Positions 1-15,159 of a stretch of DNA of 64,000 nt are shown piece by piece. The translations under genes and the position numbers were made by a program. The notes below the pieces were generated by a model that had not been told where the DNA came from, ran no database searches, and saw nothing but the letters and a program-made list of their open reading frames with translations. The stretch's first letter is position 1, and every line of letters starts with the position of its first letter. Origin of the DNA: Thiorhodovibrio frisius (GTDB taxonomy: Bacteria; Pseudomonadota; Gammaproteobacteria; Chromatiales; Chromatiaceae). The stretch is from positions 3,404,501-3,468,500 of the forward strand of contig NZ_CP121471.1 of assembly GCF_033954835.1 (NCBI RefSeq), given 5' to 3'.

Positions 1-32
1 GGGCGTTCTGCCCCGAGGGGGCATGGCGCCCC
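1..32 (+). promoter_or_regulatory. G/C-run structured leader A (partial)
   Basis: Truncated by the window edge. It shows the same alternation of G-runs and C-runs (GGGCG..CCCC..GGGGGC..GCGCCCC) as four other leaders upstream of genes in this element (near 1253, 3842, 6151 and 8081). It lies 24 nt before the start codon of the YqaJ exonuclease gene. Resemblance to the candidate STAXI RNA motif is inference from layout and gene context. Confidence 0.5.
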
Positions 33-56
33 GGTCTTTTTTTGACGGAGCTTTCC

Positions 57-1082
57 ATGAAGAGTATCGATCTGGCCCAACGCACCCCCGAATGGCACCA
101 GTGGCGTGCCCAGGGCATCACCGCCTCGGAATCAGCCATCATTCTCGGTCGCTCGCCCTACAAGACGCCCTGGCGCCTGTGGGCCGAACGCACCGGGTTG
201 GCCAAGACCGCGGACTTGAGCAAGAACCCGCTGGTGCAGCGGGGCAACCGACTGGAAGATGCCGCCCGGCAGTGGTTCGAGCAGCGTTACGACACCCTGG
301 TCTTGCCGGTCTGTGGGGAATCCGAGGAGGAGCCGCTGCTGCGTGCCTCTTTCGATGGACTGACCGATGCCGGCGAGCCGGTGGAGTTGAAGGTGCCCTC
401 GGAACGCACCTTGCGCGATGTGGCGGAACATGGCCGCGCGGCCAGCGCCTTTCGGCTCTATGAGCCCCAGGTCCAACACCAGCTTTATGTCGCCGGGGCG
501 GACAAGGGCTATCTGGTGTTCTATCAGGAAGACCAGGAACCCATCGTCTTCGAGATCGCCCGCGATGCGGCCTTGATCGAGGCCATAGTCTCCCAGGGCA
601 AAGCCTTCTGGCAGGCGTTGGTCGAGGAACGTGAACCGGAGAAAGACCCGCAGCGGGATCTGTTCATTCCCAAGGGGCCGCAGGCCGACGATTGGGCGGT
701 GCTGGCCGGGCGCTATAGCGCGCTCCAGCAGGAAGCCAAAACGGTCGAAGCTGAGTTAAAGCGCAAAAAAGCCGCGCTGGATGACATCCAGACCACCTTG
801 GTCGCCATGATGGGCCATTCGCTTATTGCCGAGTCCGCCGGACTGCGGGTGACGCGCTTCTGCGCTAAAGGGTCGGTGGATTATGCGGCGCTGTTGCAGG
901 TGCGCCTGCCAGAGTTGGGCGGTGACGCCATTGATGCCTTCCGCCGTCAATCCTCTGAACGGGTGCGGGTGACCGTGCAGGAGCATCCTCAGAAAGCGGT
1001 GATTCCGTTTAAGGCGAGAACCGCCCCAAACCCCATCGCCGATGACCACGGTCTCGCCGTGGCCACCAGTTTCTGGTTCTGA
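57..1082 (+). CDS. YqaJ-family viral recombinase/exonuclease
   Basis: This 341-residue protein begins with the YqaJ signature (TPEWHQWRAQGITASES, residues 10-26). It carries the lambda-exonuclease-like catalytic elements: FDG with Asp100 and ELK with Glu110 and Lys112. The family resects double-stranded DNA 5' to 3' and works with a single-strand annealing protein in recombination. The start ATG at 57 is preceded by GGAG. A coiled stretch (about 225-260) follows the nuclease fold. The tail ends SFWF, matching the tails of the proteins at 2277 and 2687. Position before a CobS-like ATPase matches the exo position in SXT-like elements; the annealing protein would be to the left, outside the window. 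Confidence 0.85.
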   Translation: MKSIDLAQRTPEWHQWRAQGITASESAIILGRSPYKTPWRLWAERTGLAKTADLSKNPLVQRGNRLEDAARQWFEQRYDTLVLPVCGESEEEPLLRASFDGLTDAGEPVELKVPSERTLRDVAEHGRAASAFRLYEPQVQHQLYVAGADKGYLVFYQEDQEPIVFEIARDAALIEAIVSQGKAFWQALVEEREPEKDPQRDLFIPKGPQADDWAVLAGRYSALQQEAKTVEAELKRKKAALDDIQTTLVAMMGHSLIAESAGLRVTRFCAKGSVDYAALLQVRLPELGGDAIDAFRRQSSERVRVTVQEHPQKAVIPFKARTAPNPIADDHGLAVATSFWF

Positions 1083-1111
1083 TGCCGGCGTTGTTTCTCT
1101 CTTGACCCCAA

Positions 1112-1173
1112 GACCGTCCTGCCCTTGGGCAGGCGGTCGTCCCCAGCCTCGCGTGCGCGGCTGCGGACGACCG
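1112..1173 (+). promoter_or_regulatory. Two mutually exclusive hairpins between exo and the AAA+ gene
   Basis: GACCG-T-CCTGCCC (1112-1124) pairs with GGGCAGG-CGGTC (1127-1138). CGGTCGTCC (1134-1142) also pairs perfectly with GGACGACCG (1165-1173), enclosing a smaller AGCC/GGCT stem. The two stems share the bases 1134-1138, so only one can form at a time, as in attenuators and riboswitches. No T-run follows, so a simple terminator is less likely. Confidence 0.45.
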
Positions 1174-1252
1174 CATCGGTTTTCCCGTGCGCCTGTCGGA
1201 GCGCCTTAGAAGACCCGACCTTTCGTTAATCCAGGCCAATTGGCCTTGTTCA

Positions 1253-1297
1253 TTCACCCTTGGGGGAGATCCTCCCCTGCAGGGGGCGGTCTCTCCC
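1253..1297 (+). promoter_or_regulatory. G/C-run structured leader B
   Basis: Begins TTCACCCTTGGGGGAG and continues with C-run, G-run, C-run. GGGAGA can pair with the near C-run or with the distal TCTCCC, giving alternative pseudoknot or hairpin folds. It ends 20 nt before the ATG of the AAA+ gene. A perfect 14-bp palindrome (AGGCCAATTGGCCT, 1233-1246) lies just upstream. Same layout as the leaders at 3842, 6151 and 8081. Confidence 0.6.
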
Positions 1298-1317
1298 ATG
1301 TCACACAGGAGAGACCC

Positions 1318-2280
1318 ATGCCCACACCCCAACGCTTCGATGTCGCGACCACCTTTGGCGTCAAGGCTCCGAAGGGCTTGGAGATCGAAGGCTTCGCGGA
1401 AGAGGACCATCCCAAGGTTCCGTTGAAGCAGCCCTATGTCTTTCGCCAGGGGCTCAATGCCGTACTGGCCTTTTTGCGCGATGCCGGTGGCGATGCCTTG
1501 TTGCTGACCGGCCCGACCGGCGCGGGCAAGACCTCGCTGATCCGTCAGGTCGCCGCCCGGCTGTATTGGCCGGTGCAGGAGTTGACCTGCCATGGGCGCA
1601 TGGAATTCGCTGATCTGCTCGGCGGTTTTCAATTGCTCCAGGGCGAGACCCGCTTCGTTCATGGCCCGCTGGCCCTCGCCGCGCGCGAGGGGCATCTGCT
1701 GATCCTGAACGAAATCGATCTGATGGACCCAGCCGAGTTGGCCGGGCTGAACGATATCGTCGAGGGCGCGCCCTTGGTTGTCGCCCAGAACGGCGGCGAG
1801 GTAATTCGCCCGCATCCGAAGTTCCGGGTGATCGCCACCGGCAACAGTGCCGGCGGCGGCGATCAGACCGGACTCTACCAGGGTGTGTTGCGCCAGAACC
1901 TGGCGTTCCTGGATCGCTTCCGGGTGCTGCAGGTGAGCTACCCCGACCCGGAGACCGAACATGCCGTGCTGGATGGGATCGTACCCGACCTTCCCACTGA
2001 GATCGCCCACAAGCTGGTCGTGGTGGCCAATGAGGTGCGGCGGCTGTTTCTCGGCGAGAGCGACGGTGCCAACCCCCAGGGCGGTGAGCTGACCCTGACG
2101 CTGTCCACTCGCACTCTAGTGCGTTGGGCACGGCTAACGGTGACCTTCAAGGGGGCGCCGAATCCGCTGGCCTATGCCTTGGATCAGGCGCTGACCGCGA
2201 GAGCGGCGGCGGAAGAACGCACGGCGATTCATCGCATCGCCGCCGATGTGCTGGGACCGCTGTGGAGCGGGCAGGTATGA
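1318..2280 (+). CDS. MoxR/CobS-like AAA+ ATPase
   Basis: A 320-residue single-domain AAA+ ATPase with Walker A GPTGAGKT (65-72), Walker B LLILNEID (127-134) and a sensor-1-like IATGNS. It is related to the CobS/MoxR group, which usually acts with a VWA-domain partner, here the gene at 3905. I start it at ATG 1318 because AGGAGAG lies just upstream; a longer in-frame extension to 1240 would read through the leader. Its stop overlaps the next gene's start (ATGA), implying translational coupling. The exact substrate is unknown; the cluster context suggests a role in element DNA processing. Confidence 0.85.
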   Translation: MPTPQRFDVATTFGVKAPKGLEIEGFAEEDHPKVPLKQPYVFRQGLNAVLAFLRDAGGDALLLTGPTGAGKTSLIRQVAARLYWPVQELTCHGRMEFADLLGGFQLLQGETRFVHGPLALAAREGHLLILNEIDLMDPAELAGLNDIVEGAPLVVAQNGGEVIRPHPKFRVIATGNSAGGGDQTGLYQGVLRQNLAFLDRFRVLQVSYPDPETEHAVLDGIVPDLPTEIAHKLVVVANEVRRLFLGESDGANPQGGELTLTLSTRTLVRWARLTVTFKGAPNPLAYALDQALTARAAAEERTAIHRIAADVLGPLWSGQV

Positions 2281-2639
2281 CGATGACGGATTCACCTTGG
2301 CAGCTGTTTCGCTATCACCAGGGCGATGGTTCGCGCAAAGACTGGGCCTATCGGCGCCTGGCCGATGGCGCGATGGAGATTGCCTGGGGGCGTTCGGGCC
2401 ACATTGGCCAACAGCAGCACTATCGCGCGGACCAACGCGGTTTGATTGAGCAACGTGCCCGCGAGAAGGAGCGCAAAGGCTATGTCCCTTTGGGTCAGGC
2501 CGTCCTGCGTGGGCGCGTCTTTGAGATCGTCTCGACCCAGCGCGCCGCGTTGCAACACCAACCCGTTCCCGAGCCAAGACCGCAGCCTCGCGTCGATCTC
2601 TCATGGATCGCGCCGGGGCAGGAGAACCTCTGGTTCTGA
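2277..2639 (+). CDS. WGR-domain protein
   Basis: A 120-residue protein coupled by a 4-nt ATGA overlap to the AAA+ gene. Residues about 8-70 form a WGR-like domain (WQLFRY..., then EIAWGRSGHIGQ), a small fold found in PARPs and MolR-type proteins and implicated in nucleic-acid contacts. A basic helical part (EQRAREKERKGY) follows, then a short proline-rich segment. The C-terminus is GQENLWF, resembling the FWF ends of the YqaJ and DUF3150 proteins in the same run. Function within the element is not known. Confidence 0.7.
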   Translation: MTMTDSPWQLFRYHQGDGSRKDWAYRRLADGAMEIAWGRSGHIGQQQHYRADQRGLIEQRAREKERKGYVPLGQAVLRGRVFEIVSTQRAALQHQPVPEPRPQPRVDLSWIAPGQENLWF

Positions 2640-2686
2640 ACCATCCACGACGCGGATCGGCCTGGCCGGTCCGCGGGGAGACTTTG

Positions 2687-3772
2687 ATGACAACTGACAT
2701 GACCGAGACCCGAAACGACAACCGGTCCCTGGAGAATACCCTTCATCTGACCGATCAGACCACGCTCTTTCTGGTCGATTTTCACATCTGGTCGGGGCGC
2801 AAGAAACTGCGGGCTGAGGATCTGCGGCTTGGCACGGACTTGCCGCCTGACGAGCTGATTTCGCTTGGAAGCAAGAAGATTTGCAACCCGGATGCCTTGC
2901 GGGTGTTTCACCGCAACAAGAAGCGCATTGAGCGCAACCTGTTGGCGGTCGGCACGCGCTTTCTGGGCGGCTTTCTGGTGCCCAATGCGATGGCGTTGGA
3001 CGCGCAGGCCATGGCCGAGGCTGTCACCCTGGAGACGCGCGCCGAAGCCGAGACCTTTCTCGCCGACTACGACCAGCACATCGATGCCTGGTGCGCGGCT
3101 TATCCCAGTTGGGAGCCAGCCATCCGCCAGGCGGTCGATCCGGTGGAGGTGGTACGCGGGCAATTCCGCTTTCGGGTGCAGGCGCTGCGGATTGAAACAG
3201 CGCCGCTGATCGCCACCGATACCTTGCACGAGGATGTCGCCGAGATCGGTGACACCATTTTCGCTGAGGTCGAGCAAATGGCCCGCGGGCTGGAACAGTC
3301 CTTTCTGGGCAAGCCGGAGTTGTCGCAACGGGCGCTCGGCACCTTCCGGCGCATTCACGACAAGCTCAATGCCTTGAGCTTTGTCGATGGACGGATTGAT
3401 CCGGTGGTGCGCTCTATCGGGCAGTGGCTGAAGCGACTGCCCGGCTCGGGGCCGATCCAGGGCGGATTGTTCCTGGAGGGCTGGGCGCTGATGCGTCTGG
3501 TTGGCGAAGCCGAAGCCATGGCCCGCCATGGCGAAGGGCTGTTGGCGTTGGATGCGTTGATGCCTGAAGTGCCAGAGCCCCGGTCGGACGCGGACGTTGG
3601 CGATGCCGTCCAGCAAGAAGATGACGCGAACTCAGCGTCAACGGACGCGGAAGCTTTGCCCGAAGACCCAATGGACTTCGATGACCTGTTCGAGGAGAGG
3701 GAAGTGCCGGGTCCGATCGAGACATCACAGCCGCCGGTTCCGGCTGTGCCAGCGCAAGATTTCTGGTTTTGA
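2687..3772 (+). CDS. DUF3150 family protein
   Basis: 361 residues, matching the DUF3150 family by its opening (about 15-100): a conserved LVDFHIWSGRKKL followed by a basic helical region. It is found next to CobS-like and CobT-like genes in conjugative elements; no biochemical role is established. The ATG at 2687 has GGGGAG 8 nt upstream. The last about 60 residues are acidic and proline-rich, apparently disordered, and end PAQDFWF. This resembles the acidic-linker-plus-tip design of SSB tails, an analogy rather than homology. Confidence 0.75.
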   Translation: MTTDMTETRNDNRSLENTLHLTDQTTLFLVDFHIWSGRKKLRAEDLRLGTDLPPDELISLGSKKICNPDALRVFHRNKKRIERNLLAVGTRFLGGFLVPNAMALDAQAMAEAVTLETRAEAETFLADYDQHIDAWCAAYPSWEPAIRQAVDPVEVVRGQFRFRVQALRIETAPLIATDTLHEDVAEIGDTIFAEVEQMARGLEQSFLGKPELSQRALGTFRRIHDKLNALSFVDGRIDPVVRSIGQWLKRLPGSGPIQGGLFLEGWALMRLVGEAEAMARHGEGLLALDALMPEVPEPRSDADVGDAVQQEDDANSASTDAEALPEDPMDFDDLFEEREVPGPIETSQPPVPAVPAQDFWF

Positions 3773-3841
3773 TCTGTTTCTGAGCTCGACTCAGCGCCGC
3801 GTCCATCTGGATCGACGACGCTGATTGGCGGATTTCTTTTT

Positions 3842-3883
3842 TTCACCCCTTGGGGCATTGCGCCCCCATGGGCGTGATGCCCC
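3842..3883 (+). promoter_or_regulatory. G/C-run structured leader C
   Basis: The clearest copy: TTCACCCCTTGGGGCAT, then CGCCC-ccat-GGGCG, then ATGCCCC. GGGGCAT can pair with ATGCCCC as an outer stem around the inner CGCCC/GGGCG hairpin, or GGGGC can pair with the nearer GCCCC. It lies 21 nt before the start of the CobT-like gene. Confidence 0.6.
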
Positions 3884-3904
3884 ATCACCTATTGGAGCAT
3901 CACC

Positions 3905-5803
3905 ATGAGCCATGCCTTTCGCACCTTGCATCAGGCCATGCCGATTGTCGCCGCCGCCCTAGGGCGCAAGTTTGGCGTCCCGGTCGCGGTCGGCGGAGAT
4001 GAGGCCTGCACTGATGGCAACAGCATTCAGGTGCCGGCCTTGCCGCCGCAATCTGAGCTGATTCCCGTTGCCTGGGGCTATCTGGCCCACGAGGCGGCGC
4101 ATCTGCGCTTTACCGATTTTGACGCCTATCGCCAGGGGGCGTCCGGTTCGGATCCTTTGATCCGGAGCCTGCTGAACATTCTCGAGGATATCCGCATCGA
4201 GCGGGCCATCGCCGCGCCTTATCCCGGCACGCGCGAGAACTTGCAGGCAGTTTGCGACCATCTGAGCGGACGCGGCGCCTTGTCGCCGCCGATGCCAGAT
4301 GCGCATCCAGCCCATGTCTTGACCAGCTATCTGCTGTTACATCTGCGGCATCGGATGCTGGCCACCGAGTCGCTGGCTGCTCCGGCACGTGAGGCGGAGC
4401 GGGTGCTGCGTCAGGTATTTCCTGCGCGCACCGTGCATCGGTTGCAGGGCTTGTTGGCCGAGGTCGGTCAGCTGGCCAGCACGGCAGATGCGGTCGATTT
4501 GGCGCAACGCATTCGCGCCTTGCTGGAGGAGGAGAAGCTGTCGGCGCGGGCGCCGTCATCCGGGTTCGGGGCCGATCAGCCTGATCAGCCGGGCCATGCT
4601 GGCCAAAACGCGCCTGGCACTGCGGGGACGAATATCCCGACATCGGATGGTGGTTCAACCGGAACACATCCGGACGCCAACGCACCAGATGCTCAGGGTT
4701 CAACAAACCCGACAGCTGGCCAATCAAGCCCAGGAAACGCGGCTGGGGATCATCCCTCTGGACAGGGACAGGGACAGGGACAAGGACAGAAACAGGGGAC
4801 TGACGGGACGACATCGGTTGGTCCTGGCGGTGCGGCTTCTTCAACCAAGCCGGACTCGACGCATCTTCCAATGCTCAACTCGGACGCACCGGCTGACGTC
4901 GGAAAGACCCAAGCCGTCTCCCAGGCGCTGAACGCCAACGATGACGATCTGCCAGGCGATTTGTTCCAGCAGGTGCGTGAACTCCTGGACGCTGCCGGCC
5001 AGGGCGACAGCCCTTGTCTGCTGCCCCGTGCGGAGCCCTTTGATGGCGATCCGGCGCGTGGTTTGCGGTTGCTGGGTGTCGTGCAGGAAGAGTCGCGCCG
5101 GTTGCGGGCACGTTTGCAGGGACTGGTGCAGGCCTCACGGCTGGATCGACCACAGGCGTATCGCCATGGGCCGCGCTTGCTGCCCAAGCGCCTCTATCGC
5201 GCGGCGGTGGGCGATCCTCGGCTGTTCGCGCGGAAACGTGAACGGGTGGCGGTCGATACCGCGATTCACCTGCTGATCGACCTGTCTGGGTCGATGAACT
5301 CGCCAGTGCGTCGTCGCGACGGGTTGGTTGAACGGCGTGGGCAGATCGCGCAGTCCGCCGCTTTGGCCTTGGCCCTGGCACTGGACGGCATCCATGGGGT
5401 GTCGGTCGCGGTCAGCGCCTTTCCGGGCCTGTCCGGCGTGGAGGATCGCATCAGCGTGCTGGTTCGACATGGGCAGCGTCCGCGTGCCTGTGCCGGGGCC
5501 TTTTTGCAAGGGACTCGGGGCAGCACGCCGATGGCGGGTGCGTTGTGGTTCGCGGCGGCGGATTTGCTCGGCCGACCTGAGACGCGGCGCATTGTGCTGT
5601 TGCTGACCGACGGCAAGCCGAATCGCATGGATGAGACGCGGGAGATTCTGCGGCTTTGTTCCGCCGCTGGTTTGGAGACCGTCGGGCTTGGCATCGGCGT
5701 GGATGTCTCGGGGCTGTTCCCGGTGGCGTTGCGCGTCGATGAGGTGACGGCGCTGAGAACGGCGCTCTTTGGTGCGGCCGAGCGGTTGTTGCTGGCGGCC
5801 TGA
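3905..5803 (+). CDS. CobT-like VWA-domain protein with HExxH motif
   Basis: 632 residues in three parts. The N-terminal part carries HEAAH at 62-66 in a metallopeptidase-like setting (YLAHEAAHLRFTDFDAY). A Gly/Gln/Ser-rich linker (about 215-335, including a GQ repeat) follows. The C-terminal von Willebrand A domain has the MIDAS sequence DLSGSM (459-464) and a later TDGKP. VWA proteins of this type partner with CobS/MoxR ATPases such as the gene at 1318. Start ATG 3905 follows GGAGCATC and leader C. Whether the HExxH motif is catalytic is unknown; the target of this ATPase-VWA pair in the element is not known either. Confidence 0.8.
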   Translation: MSHAFRTLHQAMPIVAAALGRKFGVPVAVGGDEACTDGNSIQVPALPPQSELIPVAWGYLAHEAAHLRFTDFDAYRQGASGSDPLIRSLLNILEDIRIERAIAAPYPGTRENLQAVCDHLSGRGALSPPMPDAHPAHVLTSYLLLHLRHRMLATESLAAPAREAERVLRQVFPARTVHRLQGLLAEVGQLASTADAVDLAQRIRALLEEEKLSARAPSSGFGADQPDQPGHAGQNAPGTAGTNIPTSDGGSTGTHPDANAPDAQGSTNPTAGQSSPGNAAGDHPSGQGQGQGQGQKQGTDGTTSVGPGGAASSTKPDSTHLPMLNSDAPADVGKTQAVSQALNANDDDLPGDLFQQVRELLDAAGQGDSPCLLPRAEPFDGDPARGLRLLGVVQEESRRLRARLQGLVQASRLDRPQAYRHGPRLLPKRLYRAAVGDPRLFARKRERVAVDTAIHLLIDLSGSMNSPVRRRDGLVERRGQIAQSAALALALALDGIHGVSVAVSAFPGLSGVEDRISVLVRHGQRPRACAGAFLQGTRGSTPMAGALWFAAADLLGRPETRRIVLLLTDGKPNRMDETREILRLCSAAGLETVGLGIGVDVSGLFPVALRVDEVTALRTALFGAAERLLLAA

Positions 5804-5828
5804 TTGCGCTGCCCTGCCCTTGTTCGCG

Positions 5829-6108
5829 ACGGCGTCTGAAAAGGCGCCGTTGCGGGCGAGCTTTCGTGGTGTCTTCAAGGCACCCGTTCGTTCAGGCTAG
5901 TCGGATGCGCTGCGGTGCATCCGAGTGGCTTGGTTCAATCCTATCCACTTCAACCGATCCGGCCGCCTCGCGGCGGCCGGGCCTTTTCCGGTGTCGTTGG
6001 CCATGGTCACCAACGGCAGTGGAAAAGGCGGTTTTGCGGTGAGTCCTGATGCCAGGACTTGCTGTGACGGCGACCGAAGACGCGATGCGTCGCCAGCCCG
6101 ATTGGGCT
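5829..6108 (+). other. Hairpin-dense intergenic region (eight stems), possible structured RNA
   Basis: Within the 417-bp gene-free gap there are eight inverted repeats: 5829-5836/5843-5850, 5868-5873/5879-5884, 5901-5908/5917-5924, 5959-5967/5972-5980 (9 bp perfect), a nested pair 5981-5989/6021-6029 around 5995-6000/6010-6015, 6042-6048/6053-6059, 6069-6073/6090-6094 and 6095-6099/6104-6108. The last is followed by TTTT and looks like a weak intrinsic terminator. No open reading frame here looks protein-coding. It may be a structured RNA or several processing or termination hairpins; transcription direction is inferred from neighbours. Confidence 0.5.
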
Positions 6109-6150
6109 TTTCAACCGCGTCCGATGACACCGCCTTGGTGCGGACCTTTG

Positions 6151-6199
6151 TTCAACCCCTTGGGGAGATGCTCTCCCCACAGGGGCGATGTGTCTCCCC
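6151..6199 (+). promoter_or_regulatory. G/C-run structured leader D
   Basis: Starts TTCAACCCCTTGGGGAGA. GGGGAGA can pair with the immediate TCTCCCC (loop TGC) or with a second identical TCTCCCC at 6193-6199; a separate GGGG run lies between them. The duplicated TCTCCCC gives two alternative 7-bp stems. It ends 21 nt before the ATG of the small protein at 6221. Confidence 0.6.
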
Positions 6200-6220
6200 G
6201 TCACCTTGGGAGATACCGCC

Positions 6221-6454
6221 ATGAGTATGAACCGTGACTTTTGGAATGACGTTGAGAAGTTTCTCGATACCGCGAGCGAGCGCCAACTGACGGCTGCCCA
6301 GCAGTCGGTGTTTGCATTGCTCGCTGAACCCGCCGATCGCGCGACCCACCGCGATATCAGGGCCGTCTATCGGCTGGTGCTCGATGAGATGCGCACCCGC
6401 GCGGCGCTGACTCGGCGCGCTGAGCCGATGACGCGCCAGGCTGTCTTGGCCTGA
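6221..6454 (+). CDS. Small hypothetical protein (77 aa)
   Basis: I do not recognise this protein. It is predicted all-helical, with a charged middle (about 20-60) and no signal peptide, membrane segment or cysteines. ATG 6221 is chosen because TTGGGAG sits 10 nt upstream and leader D just before it; the in-frame extension to 6188 would be inside the leader. The structured leader argues that it is a real, expressed gene of the element. Confidence 0.6.
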   Translation: MSMNRDFWNDVEKFLDTASERQLTAAQQSVFALLAEPADRATHRDIRAVYRLVLDEMRTRAALTRRAEPMTRQAVLA

Positions 6455-6472
6455 GTGCCTTTGTTGCCAACG

Positions 6473-6498
6473 CTGGCCCGGGCTTCTTGCCCGGCCAG
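6473..6498 (+). promoter_or_regulatory. Strong hairpin upstream of the 6538 gene
   Basis: CTGGCCCGGGC (6473-6483) pairs with GCCCGGCCAG (6489-6498) around a TTCTT loop, with one bulged C. The following sequence is only moderately T-rich (GTTTCTGTTTC), so it may be a terminator for the upstream small gene or a leader hairpin for the next one. Confidence 0.45.
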
Positions 6499-6537
6499 CT
6501 GCCGTTTCTGTTTCTTTCCTATTCTGAGGAGCCCTGC

Positions 6538-6849
6538 ATGAAGCTTCGCTTCAATACCTTCGACTGCCGGTTGCTGTGGTCGCGCTATGCCCAATCCCGC
6601 CGGCCGGCGCTGTTGCTGGTCAATGCCCGCTCGCCGGGTGATTTGATCGCTGTGGCGAGCGTGGAGCTGCCCGGCGTTGATCTGGATGCCAATGAGATCG
6701 CCATCAAGGACTTCGGTCCCAGTGCCGGGGCGCTCGATGCGCTGCGCGCGGCCTGGGTGATTTCCAAGCCGCTGCGCTTTGTCGAGGTCGGCGAACGCGC
6801 GATCCCGATCTGCAAGCTGTTGGTGGATGCCGAGACGGTTGTGCATTGA
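6538..6849 (+). CDS. Hypothetical protein (103 aa)
   Basis: Not recognised. The sequence alternates short strands and helices with a conserved-looking centre (VASVELPGVDLDANEIAIKD, about 39-58), typical of a small alpha/beta protein. There is no signal peptide or membrane segment. The ATG at 6538 has GAGGAG 8-13 nt upstream. It lies between two hairpin-rich spacers in the element's conserved gene run. Confidence 0.6.
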   Translation: MKLRFNTFDCRLLWSRYAQSRRPALLLVNARSPGDLIAVASVELPGVDLDANEIAIKDFGPSAGALDALRAAWVISKPLRFVEVGERAIPICKLLVDAETVVH

Positions 6850-6921
6850 GCGAGCCTGATGGCTCGCCGTGCGGTGTCCTTTGTGCCTCTTGCACCGGTG
6901 TCTGGAATCTTCCAGCACCGG
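6850..6921 (+). promoter_or_regulatory. Two hairpins upstream of the primase-like gene
   Basis: GCGAGCC (6850-6856) pairs with GGCTCGC (6861-6867) around TGAT, starting at the stop codon of the upstream gene. A second, longer hairpin pairs CCGGTG-CTGG (6895-6905) with CCAG-CACCGG (6912-6921). Neither has a convincing T-run; they may control readthrough or translation of the gene at 6944. Confidence 0.4.
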
Positions 6922-6943
6922 CGTGTGTTACTGGAGAACTTCG

Positions 6944-8038
6944 ATGCGTTCAATTGAATCGGCGACTGTTCGCCAGGCGGTGCAAGGCGCCGGGTGGCTG
7001 ACGATTCTGAACGAATTGGCTGGACCTGTGCTGGATGCGGCCTTGCAGCGACCGGGGCGACATGTGCCCTGCCCTGTTCATGGCGGACACCAGGGGGATG
7101 GCTTCCGGCTGTTCCCGGATGTGGATCGCTCCGGTGGTGGTATCTGCGCGACCTGCGGTCCTTATCCGGATGGCTTTGCCCTGCTTTGCTGGCTGTTTGG
7201 GTGGTCCTTTCCCGAGGCACTGAGCCGGGTGGCTGGGGTCTTGGGGCTGACGGGCGGAACATTGTCGCCATGGAGGCCGACCCTGATCGCTCGGCCACGG
7301 GTGCGCGTGAGCGCTTGCGAGCAGCATCCCAACCAGGCAAGGGCGCAGCTGCGTCGTTTGTGGAATGAAAGCCTCCCGCCTGGCCATCCTGGATCGGATG
7401 TCTTGCGGCGTTATCTGGTCCTGCGCGGACTTGGCGATGCTGACTTTGATCCACGGGTGATCCGGTTCCATCCGGAACTGCCTTATTGGAGCACCGCTGA
7501 GAAGGGCCGCCCTGTCTGTTTGGGCCGATTCCCGGCCATGCTGGCCTTGGTGTCCGCTGCGGATGGATCGGCCATGACGCTGCATCGGACCTACCTGCAA
7601 TCTGACGGTTTGGCCAAAGCACCGGTGCCAGCGCCCAAGAAGCTGATGGCGTCCGGCCAGAACCGTTCGCTCGCTGGTTCGGCTGTGCGGTTGTGCCCTG
7701 TCGAATTGGGAACCAACCCGACACTTGGCCTGACCGAGGGCATCGAGACCGCACTGGCGGTGCGCGCCATGACCGGCATGCCGGTCTGGGCGGCGCTGTC
7801 AGCAACCCTGCTGGAACGCTTTGCGCCACCGCTTGGTCTGCGCCGGCTGGTGGTCTGGGCGGACAAGGATCGTTCGGGTGTCGGCGAACAGGTAGCACGG
7901 GCGCTTCAGCGACGGTTGAGTGCGTCGGTCGAGGTGCGCATTCGCTTGCCGCTCGTGCCAATTCCACCGCATGCCCGCGGCGTTGATTGGGCGGATGTCT
8001 GGCAACAGTCACTGCCGCAATCGCGCCTGGCGGCTTAG
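6944..8038 (+). CDS. Zinc-finger/Toprim primase-like protein
   Basis: 364 residues. The N-terminal zinc site is CPVH (43-46) plus CATC (68-71), as in CHC2-type primase fingers. A C-terminal Toprim domain follows, with the TEG motif (Glu265) and DKD (307-309), which together bind Mg2+ in primases. A DUF7146-like central region lies between. These proteins are common in conjugative elements and are thought to prime or process DNA during transfer; no helicase domain is fused here. The ATG at 6944 is preceded by CTGGAGAA. Confidence 0.75.
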   Translation: MRSIESATVRQAVQGAGWLTILNELAGPVLDAALQRPGRHVPCPVHGGHQGDGFRLFPDVDRSGGGICATCGPYPDGFALLCWLFGWSFPEALSRVAGVLGLTGGTLSPWRPTLIARPRVRVSACEQHPNQARAQLRRLWNESLPPGHPGSDVLRRYLVLRGLGDADFDPRVIRFHPELPYWSTAEKGRPVCLGRFPAMLALVSAADGSAMTLHRTYLQSDGLAKAPVPAPKKLMASGQNRSLAGSAVRLCPVELGTNPTLGLTEGIETALAVRAMTGMPVWAALSATLLERFAPPLGLRRLVVWADKDRSGVGEQVARALQRRLSASVEVRIRLPLVPIPPHARGVDWADVWQQSLPQSRLAA

Positions 8039-8057
8039 CGCCACTCCATTTTTCACC

Positions 8058-8077
8058 GGACTGTCAGCCGACAGTCC
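8058..8077 (+). terminator. Perfect 8-bp hairpin after the primase-like gene
   Basis: GGACTGTC (8058-8065), loop AGCC, GACAGTCC (8070-8077), followed by ATTTTC. It sits 20 nt after the primase-like stop codon and directly before leader E. It could terminate the upstream transcript or be part of the leader of radC. Confidence 0.45.
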
Positions 8078-8080
8078 ATT

Positions 8081-8128
8081 TTCACATCCCTTGGGGGGAC
8101 AACGTCCCCTGGGGGGCGCTGTTTCCCC
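8081..8128 (+). promoter_or_regulatory. G/C-run structured leader E
   Basis: Starts TTCACATCCCTTGGGGGG. GGGGAC pairs with GTCCCC across AAC, and a second G-run (GGGGGG) can pair with the distal CCCC at 8125-8128. It ends 22 nt before the radC ATG. Same order of runs as the leaders upstream of genes at 1318, 3905 and 6221. Confidence 0.6.
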
Positions 8129-8150
8129 GTGTTTCGCTGGAGGAACAGCC

Positions 8151-8684
8151 ATGTCTCAATCCCATCACACACTATCCCGATCGCGGTTGACGCAACAACG
8201 CCGACAAGCTAATCGCTTCGCTGCCATGCTGGCGGCCGATCTGACGCCCGATGAGCAGAGCAGTCTGGTCGCCTTGGCGTTGAAGGTGCTGGAGCCAAAG
8301 GTGACCTATGACACCTTCACCGATGTCGCCACCACGATGGACTTCATGCGACTGCGCTTCGCCGGGAAACCGAACGAAGTCTTCGCCGTGGCCTTTCTTG
8401 ACAACAAGCATCGCTTGATCGCGCTGGAGGAGGTCTTTCAGGGCACCATTGATGGCTGTAATGTTCATCCTCGGGTGATTGCCCAGCGGGGACTGGCGTT
8501 GAATTGCGCCGCGTGCCTACTGATTCACAATCACCCGAGCGGTGACCCAACGCCGAGCGCCGCAGATCTGCGCGTGACCCAGCGTATTCGTCAGGCCCTC
8601 GATTTGTTCGAGATCACTCTGCTCGATCACATCATCGTCGGCGGTGAAGGGGCCTTGTCGCTGGCCCAGGAGGGACAGCTGTAA
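8151..8684 (+). CDS. radC: RadC-family JAB/JAMM domain protein
   Basis: 177 residues, consisting of the RadC JAMM domain with a short N-terminal extension and no helix-hairpin-helix part, as in element-borne RadC copies. The metal motif is complete: His126, His128, Ser136 and Asp139 in HNHPSGDPTPSAAD. RadC homologues are ubiquitous on conjugative and phage elements, but their enzymatic role is unresolved. GGAGGAA precedes the ATG at 8151. The stop overlaps the next start (TAATG). Confidence 0.85.
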   Translation: MSQSHHTLSRSRLTQQRRQANRFAAMLAADLTPDEQSSLVALALKVLEPKVTYDTFTDVATTMDFMRLRFAGKPNEVFAVAFLDNKHRLIALEEVFQGTIDGCNVHPRVIAQRGLALNCAACLLIHNHPSGDPTPSAADLRVTQRIRQALDLFEITLLDHIIVGGEGALSLAQEGQL

Positions 8685-8887
8685 TGGCTATGATCGAAGT
8701 CACTGCCGACTGTCCGGCGCGACTGGCCGGTTTTCTCGAAGGGGTCAGCTGGGTCAATGACAGCGCGGTCTCTGTGCTGTCAGTTGATGACGCTGGCTGC
8801 CGGGCTGTTTTGATCGATCAGGAGTTGGAGGACGATCACCATTGGCAGCTTGGTCCCGGGGCGCTGATGCTCAAGACTGAGGGGTAA
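8684..8887 (+). CDS. Small hypothetical protein downstream of radC (67 aa)
   Basis: Not recognised. The start codon shares its A with the radC stop (TAATG), so it is probably translationally coupled. The protein is acidic in its second half (DQELEDDHH) with no membrane segment. A short stem (CTGGCG/CGCCAG) follows its stop at about 8910-8930. Confidence 0.5.
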   Translation: MAMIEVTADCPARLAGFLEGVSWVNDSAVSVLSVDDAGCRAVLIDQELEDDHHWQLGPGALMLKTEG

Positions 8888-9011
8888 ACCCGATCGATTC
8901 ACTCGACTGGCGCAGGGAGGCGCCAGCGAGGGCCGTTGTCCCTGACGCAGCGGTTGGACGCGTCCCGTGAGAGGGTTTAGCATTCCGAGACAACGTCAGC
9001 GGGAGTTCTCC

Positions 9012-9233
9012 ATGTCACAACTTGAGCGCATCACGCTTGACCCGGATATCTGCCACGGCAAACCCTGCGTCCGTCACATGCGTTGGCCGGTAGAGGTGGT
9101 ATTGGACTTGGTATCCTCGGGGATGAGCATGAACGAGATCCTCGCTGATCATCCTGAACTGGAGCGCGAGGACGTCCGTGCTTGCCTCGCTTATACTGGC
9201 TTGCTGACCTCGGCGTCGATGCAATCGATGTGA
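9012..9233 (+). CDS. DUF433 family protein
   Basis: 73 residues matching DUF433, a small winged-helix-like antitoxin family: the opening RITLDPDICHGKPCVRHMRW and the closing ILADHPELEREDVRACLAYT are characteristic. DUF433 proteins usually sit beside a PIN-like (DUF5615) toxin; none follows here, so it is an orphan. A plausible promoter (TTGGAC at about 8953, TTAGCAT 17 nt downstream) lies in the 124-bp gap before it. Confidence 0.75.
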   Translation: MSQLERITLDPDICHGKPCVRHMRWPVEVVLDLVSSGMSMNEILADHPELEREDVRACLAYTGLLTSASMQSM

Positions 9234-9326
9234 ACCGAACCCTGGATGGCTCAGGGATGCAGAATGCCGCAATGGCATGATTTTCGGACACCCCAACCAG
9301 GTTGCTGACCAGGAGCAAAGAAGACG

Positions 9327-9557
9327 ATGGAACAGATTGCCAATTTACATATCGAGAAATTGCCCGAGGGCCTGTACCTGGCTACCAGCGATGATATCCC
9401 CGGCCTCATCGCCCAGGGGCGCACCATCGCCGAAACCTTGGAGATCGCCCGCGACGTAGCGAAGAAACTGCTGGAGGCGCAAGCAGAACGACATCACCAG
9501 GCCAAGCTGGCAGCCGTGCAAGACGCGTTCGATTATCCGCTGATTCTCGGCACCTGA
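9327..9557 (+). CDS. HicB-like antitoxin (DUF1902)
   Basis: 76 residues with the partial RNase-H-like HicB fold: strands LHIEKLPEGLYLATSDDIPGL and helix EIARDVAKKLLEAQAER. It lacks a long DNA-binding tail. It precedes hicA with a TGATG overlap, so the order is antitoxin-toxin. The pair would form a toxin-antitoxin module stabilising the element, an inference from family behaviour. Confidence 0.75.
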   Translation: MEQIANLHIEKLPEGLYLATSDDIPGLIAQGRTIAETLEIARDVAKKLLEAQAERHHQAKLAAVQDAFDYPLILGT

Positions 9558-9781
9558 TGGGCAAGCTGGCCGGGTTCAGGTACCGGCAGATTATCAAGAA
9601 ACTGAAGAAGCTTGGCTTTGTGTTTGACCGCCAGGCCGCCGGCTCTCATGAGATTTGGTTTAACCCCGCGACGGATCGCTACACCACCATTCCCAACCAT
9701 CCCGGGGAGATGCCAGAAGGCACCTTGAAGGCCATTCTCCGGCAAGCCGATGTCACAACAGATCGGTTCTTGAAGGCTTAG
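9557..9781 (+). CDS. hicA: HicA-like mRNA interferase toxin
   Basis: 74 residues with the dsRBD-like HicA fold. The key histidine lies in GSHEIWFNP (about residue 31), and the PNHPGEMPEGTLKAILRQA ending is typical. HicA toxins bind and cleave mRNA. ATG overlaps the stop of the HicB-like gene, and the next gene begins one base after its stop, so all three may be co-transcribed. Confidence 0.8.
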   Translation: MGKLAGFRYRQIIKKLKKLGFVFDRQAAGSHEIWFNPATDRYTTIPNHPGEMPEGTLKAILRQADVTTDRFLKA

Positions 9782-9782
9782 C

Positions 9783-10400
9783 ATGATCGTCATCGACTTT
9801 GAAACGACCGGACTATCCCCCGCCTACGGGGATCGCGCCACCGAGATCGCCGCCGTGCGGGTCGAGGATGGCCGCATCGTCGATCGCTATCAGAGCCTGA
9901 TGAACCCGCAACGTTCGATTCCGTCCTTTATCACCCAGTTGACGGGGATTACCAACGCCATGGTGCGCAAAGCACCGCCAGCCGCACAGGTCATGGCGGA
10001 GGTGGCGGATTTTGTCGGCGATCAGCCTTTGGTGGCGCACAACGCCAGTTTTGATAGCAAGTTCTGGGATTCGGAGCTCAACCGGATTGGTCGGTGCCGC
10101 CAACAGCCCTTCGTCTGCTCCATGCTCATCGCACGCCGGGTGTTACCCCAGGCGCCCAGCTACAAGCTCGGGGTCTTGGTGGATTTCGCCGGCTTGCCGC
10201 GCGCCGCGCGCGCTCACCGCGCCTTGGCGGATGCTGAAATGGCCGCCGAGTTGATCTGTCATCTGCAGCGGGAATTGATGCAGCGATTCCAACTCGCTCA
10301 GGTGTCTCATGATCTGCTTCAAGCGATTCAGCGGCGCCCGAAAAGTCAGCTCGACGCCTGCGTCCGGCGGTTGATCGCTGCGCAGTGCGCGGCGGCTTGA
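9783..10400 (+). CDS. DnaQ-like 3'-5' exonuclease (DEDDh)
   Basis: 205 residues with the DEDDh exonuclease motifs: DFETTG near residue 4 (Exo I), HNASFDSKFW about 88-97 (Exo II) and HRALADAEMAAEL about 141-153 (Exo III). The same fold serves as the proofreading subunit of DNA polymerase III, but here it is a stand-alone enzyme on the element. It starts one base after the hicA stop. It ends 21 bp from the convergent dnaC-like gene. Confidence 0.85.
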   Translation: MIVIDFETTGLSPAYGDRATEIAAVRVEDGRIVDRYQSLMNPQRSIPSFITQLTGITNAMVRKAPPAAQVMAEVADFVGDQPLVAHNASFDSKFWDSELNRIGRCRQQPFVCSMLIARRVLPQAPSYKLGVLVDFAGLPRAARAHRALADAEMAAELICHLQRELMQRFQLAQVSHDLLQAIQRRPKSQLDACVRRLIAAQCAAA

Positions 10401-10421
10401 GCGGCCGGCGCGGGTTCCCGT

Positions 10422-11108
10422 TCAAACGGACGGGGGCTGAGTACCGAGCGCACGCCGATGGCTTGGCCAGCGAAAGGACAGCACGGCGGAATGGTCTTCA
10501 TGGAAGCGATCCATGACGCGCTCGCCCAGATAGGCTTGCATCTCCTCGGCTGTCAGATTGCCGATCAGGATGGTTGATCGCATGGCAGCGTAGCGGCTGT
10601 CGAGGATGTCGAACAGCATGGCCTGGCGTTTTTCGTCCTTGCCGATCCCGGTGCCGGCTTCATCGAGTACCAGCACATCCGGTTGAATCAGCAGTGCCAG
10701 GGCTTCGCTCTCGGTTCGCTGTGAATGTGGGCCGAAAGACTCCCGCACTAGCCGCAAGGCGGCCGCGACCGAAATGAACAGTCCCGTGCGACCGGCGCGG
10801 ATGGCGTGCGCCAGGATCGCACAGGACAGGTGTGTCTTGCCTGTTCCGGGACCACCCAGCAGCAGCAAGTTGGCACCCTGGCTTCTGTCAGCGGCGACGC
10901 GCTCAGCATAGGTGCGACAGGCGCGGAGAATCCGCTGCTGTTTGGGCGTGACGGCTTGGAACTGCTCAAAGGATTTCCCGCGGAACCGCTCCGGAATCCC
11001 GCAGCGTCCCACGGCTCGCTCCAGTCGCTCCTGGGCGGCGGCCTCGCGCTCCGCCATGAGCTGTCGCACCGATTCGCGTCGGTGGGCGGCCAAGGCTTCA
11101 GGGGACAT
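10422..11108 (-). CDS. DnaC-like helicase loader ATPase
   Basis: 228 residues: an N-terminal basic helical region, then a AAA+ domain with Walker A LLGGPGTGKTH (about 100-110) and Walker B VLVLDEAG. This is the DnaC/IstB group that loads replicative helicase. I start it at 11108 because the ATG overlaps the 3' end of the DnaT-like gene by 11 nt (GATGTCCCCTGA), giving a translationally coupled pair. An in-frame extension to 11315 lies within the neighbouring gene and is unlikely. There is no transposase beside it, so it is not IS21 istB. Confidence 0.8.
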   Translation of the reverse strand: MSPEALAAHRRESVRQLMAEREAAAQERLERAVGRCGIPERFRGKSFEQFQAVTPKQQRILRACRTYAERVAADRSQGANLLLLGGPGTGKTHLSCAILAHAIRAGRTGLFISVAAALRLVRESFGPHSQRTESEALALLIQPDVLVLDEAGTGIGKDEKRQAMLFDILDSRYAAMRSTILIGNLTAEEMQAYLGERVMDRFHEDHSAVLSFRWPSHRRALGTQPPSV

Positions 11109-12768
11109 CGGCGTCGTTGAGCCAAGGAATCTGATCGAACGGGGTTGCGCCTTTGTCGTAGTCTTTGTCCGCGAGTCCGGTGTGCGAGATGACATGGGTC
11201 TTTTCCTGTTTCTGTGGCTTCTGATGGGTTTGCAGATATTGCATGCGATGAATGAAGGTCGCGTCCCAACTCCGGCGTTTGATGCCAGCATCGGTCCAAA
11301 AGGTGATGAATTCATCGACCTGATCCTCCACCCAATCGCGCGTCAGCCCCTGCTTGGTCGCCCAGGCATAGACACGCTCTCCGGGTTGCCAATCGGGCGG
11401 AATGAAACGCGGAGCGGGCGCGGGAGGCGTGGCAGGTTTGGGTTTGGATTTGGCCGGGGACGGGGGTCTCCTGGAACCGCCGGGCCTGGCGTTTGGAGGC
11501 GACTGGCTCGGGGGCGAGAGCGGTACCGTCGCCGATGCCGAGGCGTTCATCGGTTGCGCGCGATTGGCGGCTGCGATCGACGATGACAAGGCCGACCTAG
11601 GCGGCGGATGTGGCTGGCTCGGTGGCCTCACCGCTGGCTGCCCACTTGGGAGAGGCGGCGACATGGAGGCGGGCGGGCGACTGGCTAAAGAGGACAAAGG
11701 GACGCCTGCTCCCGGGTTGATCGTTGCCGAGGCACCTTGCCCGGCAGGCATGGGCTCCGGTTGCCGTTGGCTCGCGAGGCGTGCGGTTGGTTCTGACGCT
11801 GGGGCAGACGTGTTGATCGTGGTCGCGGTGCTAGCCGGCGCTGGTGGCGATGCGGGAAGCACGCTTGCGCTGGCCGGGCGCGTGGCCTGCTTGGCCGGCT
11901 GCCGGCTTGAAACGGATTCCGCCTGCTGGCCTGGCTGCGATGCGACGGCCGGCTCCGATGCCGAAGCGAACCGTCCGCTTGCGCTGACCGGACTCACGGG
12001 CTGACTGGTCGACAGCGCGCTTGAAACAGATTCCGCCTGACGCTGAATCGGCGGCGATTCGGAGAGCGGCTCCGTCATCGTCGGTGCCGGGTTGATCGGT
12101 GTTTTGGGGCTACCCCCAACCATGCTCGGCTGGATGGCCAAAATGGTCTCGGCCAGATGCTTGATTTGCTGCCACACGACCGGCTGAGCCAGCAACTCCG
12201 ATAAGCTCGCCGGGGTGATTTGATGTGCAACCGATTGAGCAAATGGCACCGCCTCGGGTGGGCGCTCGGTTGGTTGCACAGAAACTGGCTCCGCAGCAGA
12301 AGGAGACATAGCAGCAGGACGGCCATCGCCCAATGCCTGACTCACCGACGGGTTAACGGAAAACGCTTCGGGTTGGCGCTGAATCGTTTGGGATGCGACC
12401 GGCGCTTGCGCCCTAGGAGGCTGGCTTGTCGGCCTGGGAGGAAGGCTTGTCTGGTTGGACGCTTGACTCGCTTGGCCATTGATCGCGACCGGCTTCATCT
12501 CAAACGCCGCGCCGTCACCCAGGATCCGATAGCTGTTTGGGCTGCGCGGACCACCCGGGATGCGCGAGAGATAGCGACCATCCAACTCCGACAGCGCCTT
12601 GGTGATCCCGCGCCGGCTGAGATCGGTCATCTCCTGCAATGCCGACAACGAGACCTCAGAGAGCCCGGTCTCGGTATCGCAACGCGCCTGGATGGCAAGC
12701 AGCAACAAACGTTGGGCTGGGGTCACCCCCTTGGTCTTCCCAGCACCGTCAAGTTCTTGAGTGGCCAT
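11098..12768 (-). CDS. DnaT-like primosomal protein with winged helix and long disordered linker
   Basis: 556 residues. The N-terminal winged-helix domain (about 10-90) contains LSALQEMTDLSRRGITKALS. A long Ser/Pro/Ala/Gln-rich linker (about 95-445) has recurring Q-[AP]-E-S/P-like units. A DnaT-like ssDNA-binding domain (about 455-516) runs from FIPPDWQPGERVYAWATK to SWDATFIHRMQYLQTH. DnaT and DnaC together load the replicative helicase, and the next gene is DnaC-like, so the pair probably starts element replication. The linker is much longer than in chromosomal DnaT (about 180 residues in total). Confidence 0.7.
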   Translation of the reverse strand: MATQELDGAGKTKGVTPAQRLLLLAIQARCDTETGLSEVSLSALQEMTDLSRRGITKALSELDGRYLSRIPGGPRSPNSYRILGDGAAFEMKPVAINGQASQASNQTSLPPRPTSQPPRAQAPVASQTIQRQPEAFSVNPSVSQALGDGRPAAMSPSAAEPVSVQPTERPPEAVPFAQSVAHQITPASLSELLAQPVVWQQIKHLAETILAIQPSMVGGSPKTPINPAPTMTEPLSESPPIQRQAESVSSALSTSQPVSPVSASGRFASASEPAVASQPGQQAESVSSRQPAKQATRPASASVLPASPPAPASTATTINTSAPASEPTARLASQRQPEPMPAGQGASATINPGAGVPLSSLASRPPASMSPPLPSGQPAVRPPSQPHPPPRSALSSSIAAANRAQPMNASASATVPLSPPSQSPPNARPGGSRRPPSPAKSKPKPATPPAPAPRFIPPDWQPGERVYAWATKQGLTRDWVEDQVDEFITFWTDAGIKRRSWDATFIHRMQYLQTHQKPQKQEKTHVISHTGLADKDYDKGATPFDQIPWLNDADVP

Positions 12769-13257
12769 AGCGATCCCCTATGCAGTTCTCCGAAAAGCCG
12801 CAGCGGGGCAAGACGCCATCACTGCCTGCGACGATGGAAAAATGATAGAGGTTCAGGTCGCTGAAAGCGCCTGTGAAAGCTCGGTGGATTGCTTACCTTT
12901 TGAGACTGCGGAATCGGGGTTTCTCAGCGGTTGATGCCTTCTCACACGACGGCGCAACGATATTTCTTCACCTTACAACCTGAAACCCCTAAACCATTGG
13001 GCACAGGGGCCTTTCAATGAAGAAACGGCGCCATAATGTAAACTAATTTATTCAAATCGTTTCTTTTCGTAGGTCCGCGCAGTGGCGAATTTGGCTGCCG
13101 AGGCAAATGCTGGGCTTTTTTGGCCCCCTTTTGTTGTCGCTCGACCGTTGACGGATACCCAAACTACTCACGTCTTCCCCAAGGACGATCAGCGCACCGA
13201 TGGGACTGGTCGCGGCGGAAGACCCAAGAGAATCCAATCAACATTTTGGGGTGTCCC
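12769..13257 (+). promoter_or_regulatory. 489-bp divergent intergenic region (dnaT-like / alpA)
   Basis: The gap between the divergent DnaT-like and AlpA genes must hold both promoters. It is AT-richer than its surroundings at about 12950-13070, with a TATAAT-like CATAAT at 13032, but I see no -35 that fits with confidence. A CCCCT...AGGGG inverted repeat lies at about 12986-13008. No convincing gene is seen. Confidence 0.4.
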
Positions 13258-13545
13258 ATGGGCTATCGTCTTCTTCGCCTTCCTGCTGTTACTGATCGAA
13301 CCGGCCAGAGCCGCTCGCGGTTGTATGCCCTTATCGCCAAAGGACTCTTTGTCCGTCCGATTGCATTAAGCCCTCGCACTGTTGCCTGGCCTGAACACGA
13401 AATTGACCAGCTGATTGCCGCAAGAATCCGTGGCGTCAGTCAAGAGGAATTAAGTCTTCTTGTCGACCAGCTTCACACCCTGCGTTCAAGCGTTGGACTT
13501 AACGCCAAGGATCATCAGGAAGTTTCTGTCATCACAAGCACCTGA
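13258..13545 (+). CDS. alpA: AlpA-type helix-turn-helix regulator
   Basis: 95 residues with the AlpA/MerR-like winged helix: LRLPAVTDRTGQSRSRLYAL, then an IALSPRTVAWPEHEID wing. AlpA proteins activate integrase or excision genes of genomic islands, fitting its place upstream of the integrase. ATG 13258 is used; the reading frame is open further upstream, but homology begins here. A paralogue lies at 49574-49912 on the other island. The C-terminal extension is predicted helical. Confidence 0.8.
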   Translation: MGYRLLRLPAVTDRTGQSRSRLYALIAKGLFVRPIALSPRTVAWPEHEIDQLIAARIRGVSQEELSLLVDQLHTLRSSVGLNAKDHQEVSVITST

Positions 13546-13731
13546 TGCTTGGGAATGAATCTGCTTCACCGAGCCCAGGAAGGCCGTGGCTTCTTGTCCC
13601 GGGCGGGGAAATGAACAATCTGAGAAAGCGCTCAAGTGAACCTTCGCGAGTTAAGGGGCAGGAGCCCACCAAAGCAGTGGGACCATCGCGCGCTCAGCAC
13701 ATCCACAGGATCACCAGAAGGCGACCAACGA

Positions 13732-14046
13732 ATGGAGAAGCAAAACTTACCCTTGCTTTGGGATCTTGAAGAAACAGCCAACCAGCTTGGTGGCGTGAGC
13801 GCTCGATTAGTCAAGCGCCTGCTCGACCGAGGAGACCTTCGCGCTCAGCGCGTTGGTCGCCGCTTGCTGGTAAACGTCCAGTCCGTCCTCGAGTACATCG
13901 ACCAAGCGCCCTCCTTGGCGCATAATTCGCCCTGCGCAGGCGCGGTGTGCGGCACGCGACCCGAGGAGAGAAAATATGCCGTACCGACGCAAAGACTCGC
14001 AAATCTGGTGGGCCAGCTATACCGACCCAAGCGGCAAGCGAGTTAG
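13732..14046 (+). CDS. Helix-turn-helix (excisionase-like) protein upstream of the integrase
   Basis: 104 residues. The first about 60 (LWDLEETANQLGGVSARLVKRLLDRGDLRAQRVGRR) form a MerR/excisionase-like helix-turn-helix. The C-terminal part overlaps the integrase start by 71 nt in another frame and looks less conserved. Position directly before the integrase suggests an excisionase or directionality factor, which is inference. The start at 13732 follows AGAAGG; the in-frame extension to 13636 lacks similarity to known domains. Confidence 0.6.
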   Translation: MEKQNLPLLWDLEETANQLGGVSARLVKRLLDRGDLRAQRVGRRLLVNVQSVLEYIDQAPSLAHNSPCAGAVCGTRPEERKYAVPTQRLANLVGQLYRPKRQAS

Positions 14047-15067: not shown

Positions 15068-15069
15068 TT

Positions 15070-15100
15070 TGGCGGAGAGGGTGGGATTCGAACCCACGGA
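15070..15100. other. Probable element attachment site in tRNA-Ser 3' end
   Basis: The integrase ends 2 nt from the tRNA 3' end, so the attachment core should be the 3' part of the tRNA (T-arm and acceptor region). The second copy would be at the other end of the element, left of the window. The core length cannot be set without that copy. Confidence 0.5.
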
Positions 15101-15159
15101 CCCCGTAAGGAGTCACTTGATTTCGAGTCAAGCCCGTTCGACCACTCCGGCACCTCTCC
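15070..15159 (-). tRNA. tRNA-Ser (CGA)
   Basis: 90 nt on the minus strand with encoded CCA (complement of 15070-15072), discriminator G, a 7-bp acceptor stem (GGAGAGG/CCTCTCC), T-arm GGGTTCGAATCCC and a long variable arm typical of tRNA-Ser. The anticodon loop CTCGAAA gives anticodon CGA. Its 3' end faces the integrase and is the probable integration site; an intact tRNA sequence is restored on this side. Confidence 0.95.

Follow-up and report, generated by a model that had tools for sequence, protein, structure and literature searches.

A recurrent, probably bistable RNA leader before unlike genes of an integrative element in Thiorhodovibrio frisius

Introduction

Leaders that sequester the Shine-Dalgarno (SD) sequence in one of two alternative folds are already a known kind of control element and include translational riboswitches and RNA thermometers. 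The regulation of integrative elements and conjugative plasmids has mostly been described at the level of transcription. STAXI, a candidate RNA of mobile DNA, is described (PMC2864571) as a pseudoknot that occurs in tandem, in two or three repeats, in Enterobacteriales. The present analysis concerns a G/C-rich leader that recurs before successive genes of an integrative element in Thiorhodovibrio frisius. The DNA analysed, termed the window, is a stretch of 64,000 nucleotides (nt) of contig NZ_CP121471.1 (G000:C1:3404501-3468500) within a 5.42-Mb single-contig genome; the element fills the left part of the window, and host-type genes lie to its right. The sequence and position of the leader and the covariation of three of its helices point to a bistable cis-acting RNA that probably controls translation start element-wide.

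Results

The leader is made of six alternating C- and G-runs, designated C0-A-B-G2-C-D, of which D includes the SD together with the bases between it and the ATG. Each copy contains CCCC-NN-GGGG or a close variant; C-, G- and C-runs come after it in turn, and then, ahead of the ATG, a G-rich stretch in which the SD lies. By sequence, the copies in the window are located at 1-56 (before exo), 1253-1317, 3842-3904, 6151-6220 and 8081-8150; each closes with an SD (GGAG) and ATG, and model matches agree with a sequence-only reading that had placed five leaders, each with such an ending, at these sites. When the ATG is included, the annotated features, all on the plus strand, are the exo leader at 1..59, whose 5' end is cut by the window edge (model match -9 to 59, E=7e-4 in the genome) and which is complete just outside the window as L005:18991-19059; the leader of the AAA+/CbbQ-like gene at 1254..1320, identified by sequence, folding and model match; that of the CobT-like gene at 3842..3907, whose predicted lowest-energy fold is an SD-free rod; that of an open reading frame (ORF) of 77 amino acids (aa) at 6153..6223, the best-scoring window copy (E=2.3e-10 in the genome); and that of radC at 8084..8153, in which the A:C alternative is weaker. 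In the AAA leader the parts are A at about 1262-1271, B at 1271-1277, G2 at 1282-1286, C at 1288-1297 and D with the SD at 1308-1316. The alternation of C- and G-runs given in the sequence-only reading holds, but its TTGGGG does not, because the TT between the first C-run and the G-run varies (AC in the exo copy, TA and TC in a second element), so that CCCC-NN-GGGG is the better description. That reading had missed a recT leader just left of the window, at L005:17905-17969, and six further leaders in the second element (L006).

The runs allow two folds, which are modeled here. In Fold 1, A:B and C:D would pair, with C0:G2 around A:B, and the SD would be masked (OFF); in Fold 2, A:C would pair, with B:G2 inside it in the predictions, giving one rod in which C0 and D are free and the SD is exposed (ON). 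A thus mimics D, both being complementary to the same bases of C, and the C bases used in A:C and C:D overlap by at least half in 53 of 56 leaders.

The pairing was examined in alignments and without them. A MAFFT alignment of 47 leaders, analysed with RNAalifold, gave 6 pairs and no double change, a poor result because the arms slip in the alignment; the structure was then set by hand (A:B, C0:G2, C:D) for a covariance model, R1, built from 47 leaders with the ATG included. Alignment A3, 142 distinct matches from the best 150 of 228 and fitted to R1, contains 178 double-change cells against 111+-7.8 in shuffles, and its covariation score is 0.186, whereas shuffling gives 0.136+-0.005 and slid structures give 0.068-0.108. 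In A4, 92 distinct matches from the loci of a class-wide search and likewise fitted to R1, all five covariation measures exceed the shuffles, including 165 double-change cells against 83.8+-7.6 and a double change at 16 of the 19 pairs against 12.8+-0.8. Because both alignments depend on the fit to R1, the pairing was also tested without an alignment. A CC-GGG anchor at the right distance was present in 191 of 315 upstream regions, from which 62 non-redundant leaders, picked by gene and not by model, were retained by restricting the set to seven genes and capping similarity at 0.80; duplex energies, capped at 0, of cognate arms were compared with those of arms exchanged in 500 shuffles. Cognate arms beat all 500 shuffles for C:D (z -9.2; -7.2 within genes), A:C (z -8.8; -6.9) and A:B (z -5.2; -3.5), and were not better than exchanged arms for A:D, B:D or B:C in the same 62 leaders. 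The A:C helix is absent from the R1 structure; in 60 leaders of other families it gave z -10.9, and -5.8 when arms were exchanged within elements, with 0 of 500 shuffles as good in each case; B:D there gave -2.8 overall and -1.1 within elements. Covariation thus holds for A:B, C:D and A:C, and it extends to other families and to the copies within a single element; the two-way pairing of the runs and the repeated gene leader proposed in the sequence-only reading, together with the covariation by which the proposal was to be checked, are borne out, A:C and C:D falling on the same bases. On this comparative evidence the cognate-arm tests indicate selection on the three helices, which is the signature of a bistable RNA.

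Folding energies predict masking of the SD and its relief by A. The window copies have fold z-scores of -2.4 to -4.0, and the predicted lowest-energy fold of the AAA, small-ORF and radC copies consists of two hairpins with the SD paired. The median cost of opening the SD is 4.3 kcal/mol for the whole leader versus 7.6 kcal/mol for leaders truncated to remove everything through A; the presence of A lowers this cost by at least 1 kcal/mol in 33 of 58 leaders and raises it in 2. When the SD is forced open, the AAA and small-ORF copies are predicted to form the rod with A:C and B:G2 paired.

At E<=1 the model finds 13 matches in the home genome, of which 12 are leaders of the two elements, although R1 was built partly from the home-genome copies that it then recovers; the thirteenth (E=0.88) is outside both elements. 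The window and 43 loci contain 228 matches at E<=0.1. In 14 chosen genomes, 130 of the 131 matches at E<=0.01 are within element clusters, as judged from coordinates read by hand, and one (G455, E=0.006) is outside them. At E<=0.001 there is a match in 20 of 274 genomes of a class sample and in 15 of 398 of a phylum sample, the home genome being included in both; in the order, 32 of 195 genomes encode DUF3150, one of the element's module proteins, again with the home genome included. A plain consensus pattern with 2 mismatches gave 5 matches, a number reached by 5 of 100 shuffles and unconvincing alone, which indicates that the signal resides in the pairing. Sequence upstream of module-gene orthologues was read in 40 stretches around listed places in relatives, and many of these orthologues have the same pattern, its arms differing greatly. 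Nine, ten and eleven copies occur within 7-9 kb in L118, L122 and L123, respectively, and may point to a shared signal. In the 7.4 kb of L118:1-7400, similar leaders stand before successive ORFs, nine in all, and several of them have a near-identical block upstream. Six loci (L057, L058, L059, L060, L064 and L067) have only zero to two R1 matches each. In L058 and L060 (recT, exo, cobT), and in L059, L067 and L045 (cobT), a G/C hairpin and T-run before the SD, resembling a conditional terminator, replaces the leader.

The leader is also present on named plasmids: IncC plasmids, pKLC102, and beta- and alphaproteobacterial plasmids. Eight annotated plasmid regions contain 43 R1 matches at E<=0.05, 39 of them on the plus strand, and 33 of these 39 end at most 3 nt from an annotated start codon; it should be noted that this count was made by hand, that R1 contains the ATG, and that two of the eight regions are near-identical IncC sequences. 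The best matches are good on the Rhizobium (E 7e-8), Paraburkholderia (1e-6) and Comamonas (3e-6) plasmids and weak in Shewanella (0.03). IncC genes with a leader include ssb, bet, exo, an AAA ATPase and DUF3150, and those of pKLC102 include a STY4534-type replication gene; a search with the IncC exo leader and short flanks was positive for 784 of 72,556 plasmid records. Among 22 leaders measured (omitting six on the second IncC plasmid and five with a distant or opposite-strand neighbour), 7 begin at most 15 nt past the upstream stop codon, and two of these overlap it by 3 nt, so that in these 7 copies there is little room for a promoter, and the leader would normally have to lie on a transcript begun further upstream.

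The module of the element comprises ssb, recT, exo, AAA+, DUF3150, cobT, the 77-aa ORF, a Toprim primase and radC, ssb being named from its sequence and its matches on annotated plasmids rather than by Pfam. Pfam agrees with the target genes listed in the sequence-only reading: on the plus strand, exo (57..1082; YqaJ-like recombinase/exonuclease, Pfam YqaJ), the CbbQ/NorQ-type AAA+ ATPase (1318..2280; AAA_5/CbbQ_C), the CobT-like VWA protein (3905..5803; CobT/VWA), the small 77-aa ORF (6221..6454; no Pfam family) and radC (8151..8684; RadC). The gene left of the window that is preceded by the recT leader is RecT by Pfam. Ahead of the DUF3150 gene (2687..3772, plus strand; Pfam) neither reading of the upstream sequence nor the model search revealed a leader of this kind. 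The second element, of the same kind, is about 190 kb from the first, and its proteins are 78-96% identical. A phage-type integrase gene (13976-15067) adjoins a transfer RNA (tRNA) gene on the minus strand (15073-15159), and this junction, window 13976-15159, is probably the right end of the element with its attachment site. At 9327-9781, inside the element and without a leader, a DUF1902 protein is followed by a HicA-type toxin (9557-9781), a probable toxin-antitoxin pair. Pfam searches for a trans-acting factor among 34 window proteins, about half of them encoded by host genes right of the element, recognised no family of translational regulators, in a scan that left out the left part of the element, further small ORFs and the host genome.

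Several leaders are preceded by further structured sequence. The upstream domain of the 77-aa ORF leader (6035..6152, plus strand), conserved over five distinct sequences, has hairpins and a possible pseudoknot, GACGC:GCGTC. It contains a GGCGAC-CGAAGACGC loop and a downstream CGCGTC, with its parts ordered as in radC RNA. The pseudoknot is suggestive from the sequence, its strands being invariant, so that covariation cannot support it. A second conserved block ahead of the AAA leader, at about 1165-1240 (GTCGGAGCGCC ... CCCGACC), is kept in six relatives and has a possible pseudoknot, GTCGG:CCGAC. In L123, L126 and L118, a repeated block, CGGATCGGG ... CGATCC, surrounds a hairpin within about 60 nt upstream of several leaders; it has a UUCG loop in L118, looks like a pseudoknot domain, and had no Rfam match in the scans of those loci.

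At the leaders, whether in the window or in eight relatives' loci, no Rfam family scored over its threshold; a sub-threshold Whalefall-1 match (E 1.1) is on the opposite strand of the AAA leader. Neither STAXI (RF01728) nor radC RNA gave a match at E<=10 in window 1-14000. For RF01728, eight genomes or records (the home genome, three other genomes and four plasmids) contained 0 matches over the cut-off and none at leaders, the best being on the E. ludwigii plasmid at position 198117 (E 0.026, outside the stretch read) and in the home genome at 2863539 (E 0.09, outside both elements). The likeness to STAXI put forward in the sequence-only reading is therefore not upheld, the architecture also being different, and its fallback, a new element-specific leader, was right in kind but too narrow, the leader occurring across many families as well as on named conjugative plasmids. 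radC RNA (RF01754) is below threshold throughout the window and the eight relatives' loci, and its five sub-threshold matches in the home genome are all outside the two elements. The other genomes and plasmids contain 17 radC RNAs over the cut-off, lying upstream of mobile-element genes, and for 11 of these an R1 match at E<=0.1 follows within 40 nt or overlaps; ten of them stop short of the leader, and the other one (L124) overlaps it by 34 nt. As to the remaining six, in L139 a leader is 129 nt downstream, in L144 and for one in L148 there is what looks by eye like a degenerate leader, and L140, L143 and another in L148 have nothing similar. We read radC RNA as a separate, optional domain upstream of the leader. 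DUF3085 RNA (RF02959), searched with stricter filters, was over the cut-off in 0 of 12 genomes or records, and its three weak matches (E<=1) are not at leaders. A DUF3085 gene is present on one leader-bearing plasmid.

Discussion

In the mechanism we propose, A:B and then C:D would form first during transcription, so as to mask the SD, and a signal or condition that opens the C0/A:B part would let A capture C and free the SD. The opening factor might be an RNA-binding protein, a small RNA or, in some copies, an upstream domain such as radC RNA. With many copies per element (up to eleven in the stretches read), such leaders could set the translation of DNA-processing and maintenance genes jointly.

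Several observations weigh against this interpretation. In A3 there is no excess of pairs with a double change (13 versus 12.1 shuffled; 177 of 500 shuffles) or of further pair types (42 versus 39.4; 84 of 500), and, model fitting aside, the A4 loci were selected because R1 hit them. Among the 62 leaders, C0:G2 (z -2.2) and B:G2 (z -2.5; -1.2 within genes) do not exceed the control C0:A (z -1.8; -2.1 within genes). The window cobT copy is predicted to be open, as one long rod with the SD free; the radC copy does not use A:C when its SD is forced open; and in the recT copy, a counterexample, A raises the opening cost. The predicted probability that the SD is unpaired is spread, with quartiles of 0.05, 0.25 and 0.40. 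Finally, a T-rich stretch after C (at least 6 T in 8 nt) is present in 20 of 143 loops, and termination is possible for some copies.

C:D alone would explain the masking, and the predicted lowest-energy fold is masked in three of the four complete window copies, so that a static leader, in which C:D sets a fixed low level of translation, A:B is a spacer or stabiliser and A:C has no switching role, would need no trigger, and none is known. Against it, A:C co-varies as strongly as C:D, including in families outside the model and among copies within one element, and we consider the static leader unlikely. The T-rich loops between C and D, and the sister loci in which a hairpin and T-run immediately precede the SD of the corresponding genes, would fit an attenuator in which the A:C rod and a U-run terminate transcription ahead of the gene; as a general account this is quite improbable, since 123 of the 143 loops have no such T-run and the co-varying pairing of the SD with C is unneeded for termination.

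Action at the level of DNA, as an operator or as a hairpin in single-stranded DNA during transfer, as has been suggested for STAXI, is compatible with the conjugative nature of the elements and with C/G dyads that could form in single strands. Counts of G-U versus A-C do not settle the strand (175 versus 207 in A3, 131 versus 111 in A4). The leaders, however, sit directly before start codons, their arms co-vary with the SD region, and the short distance from the upstream stop codon in 7 of 22 copies is likewise unfavourable, which makes a DNA-level role very improbable. We give almost no credence to membership of the leader in the STAXI or radC RNA family: the gene company is similar (ssb, radC and other DNA-processing genes) and radC RNA often adjoins the leader, but neither RF01728 nor RF01754 matches at the window leaders, and the radC match stops short of the leader in all but one of the adjoining cases.

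The bistable leader thus remains the preferred interpretation, and it would have consequences for the element as a whole. It is possible, although short of probable, that the leaders form an element-wide riboregulon, in which unrelated genes would each bear one copy of a bistable SD switch with gene-specific arms, and a single factor of the element or the host would flip all copies together when the element excises, transfers or establishes itself; orphan RNAs like radC RNA would then be optional sensor domains added to this shared expression platform. A translational switch common to many genes of one element would add a second, coordinated layer to its regulation, and the orphan radC RNA would gain a concrete partner in the neighbouring SD switch, a possible target of its action. 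The model also gives precise predictions for mutation and compensation. Judged against Rfam 15 and an incomplete coverage of the literature, the leader seems to represent a family of translation switches not described before; neither the six-run family nor its reuse before unlike genes was found in Rfam 15 or the literature searched, a 2017 list said to comprise 224 candidate RNAs being outside the comparison.

Comparison with the described systems places the leader near several of them. Like STAXI, it is found near DNA-processing genes on mobile elements, but STAXI consists of tandem pseudoknots (PMC2864571), whereas the leader is a single unit before each gene. radC RNA is also a cis-regulatory candidate on the same kinds of element, and its order of hairpins is like that of the upstream domain of the 77-aa ORF, but it has a 149-position model and another fold. 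The model consensus of DUF3085 RNA has CAACCCacCGGG at its end, similar to the runs with which the leader starts, and that family may end inside a related leader. From other bistable SD-sequestering leaders, the leader described here differs in that many unlike genes of one element carry it with gene-specific arms, and no ligand or temperature sensor is known for it; it shares with them mutually exclusive pairings, conserved base pairing between the SD and an anti-SD strand, and a competing strand, here A in the A:C helix, that takes up the same anti-SD bases.

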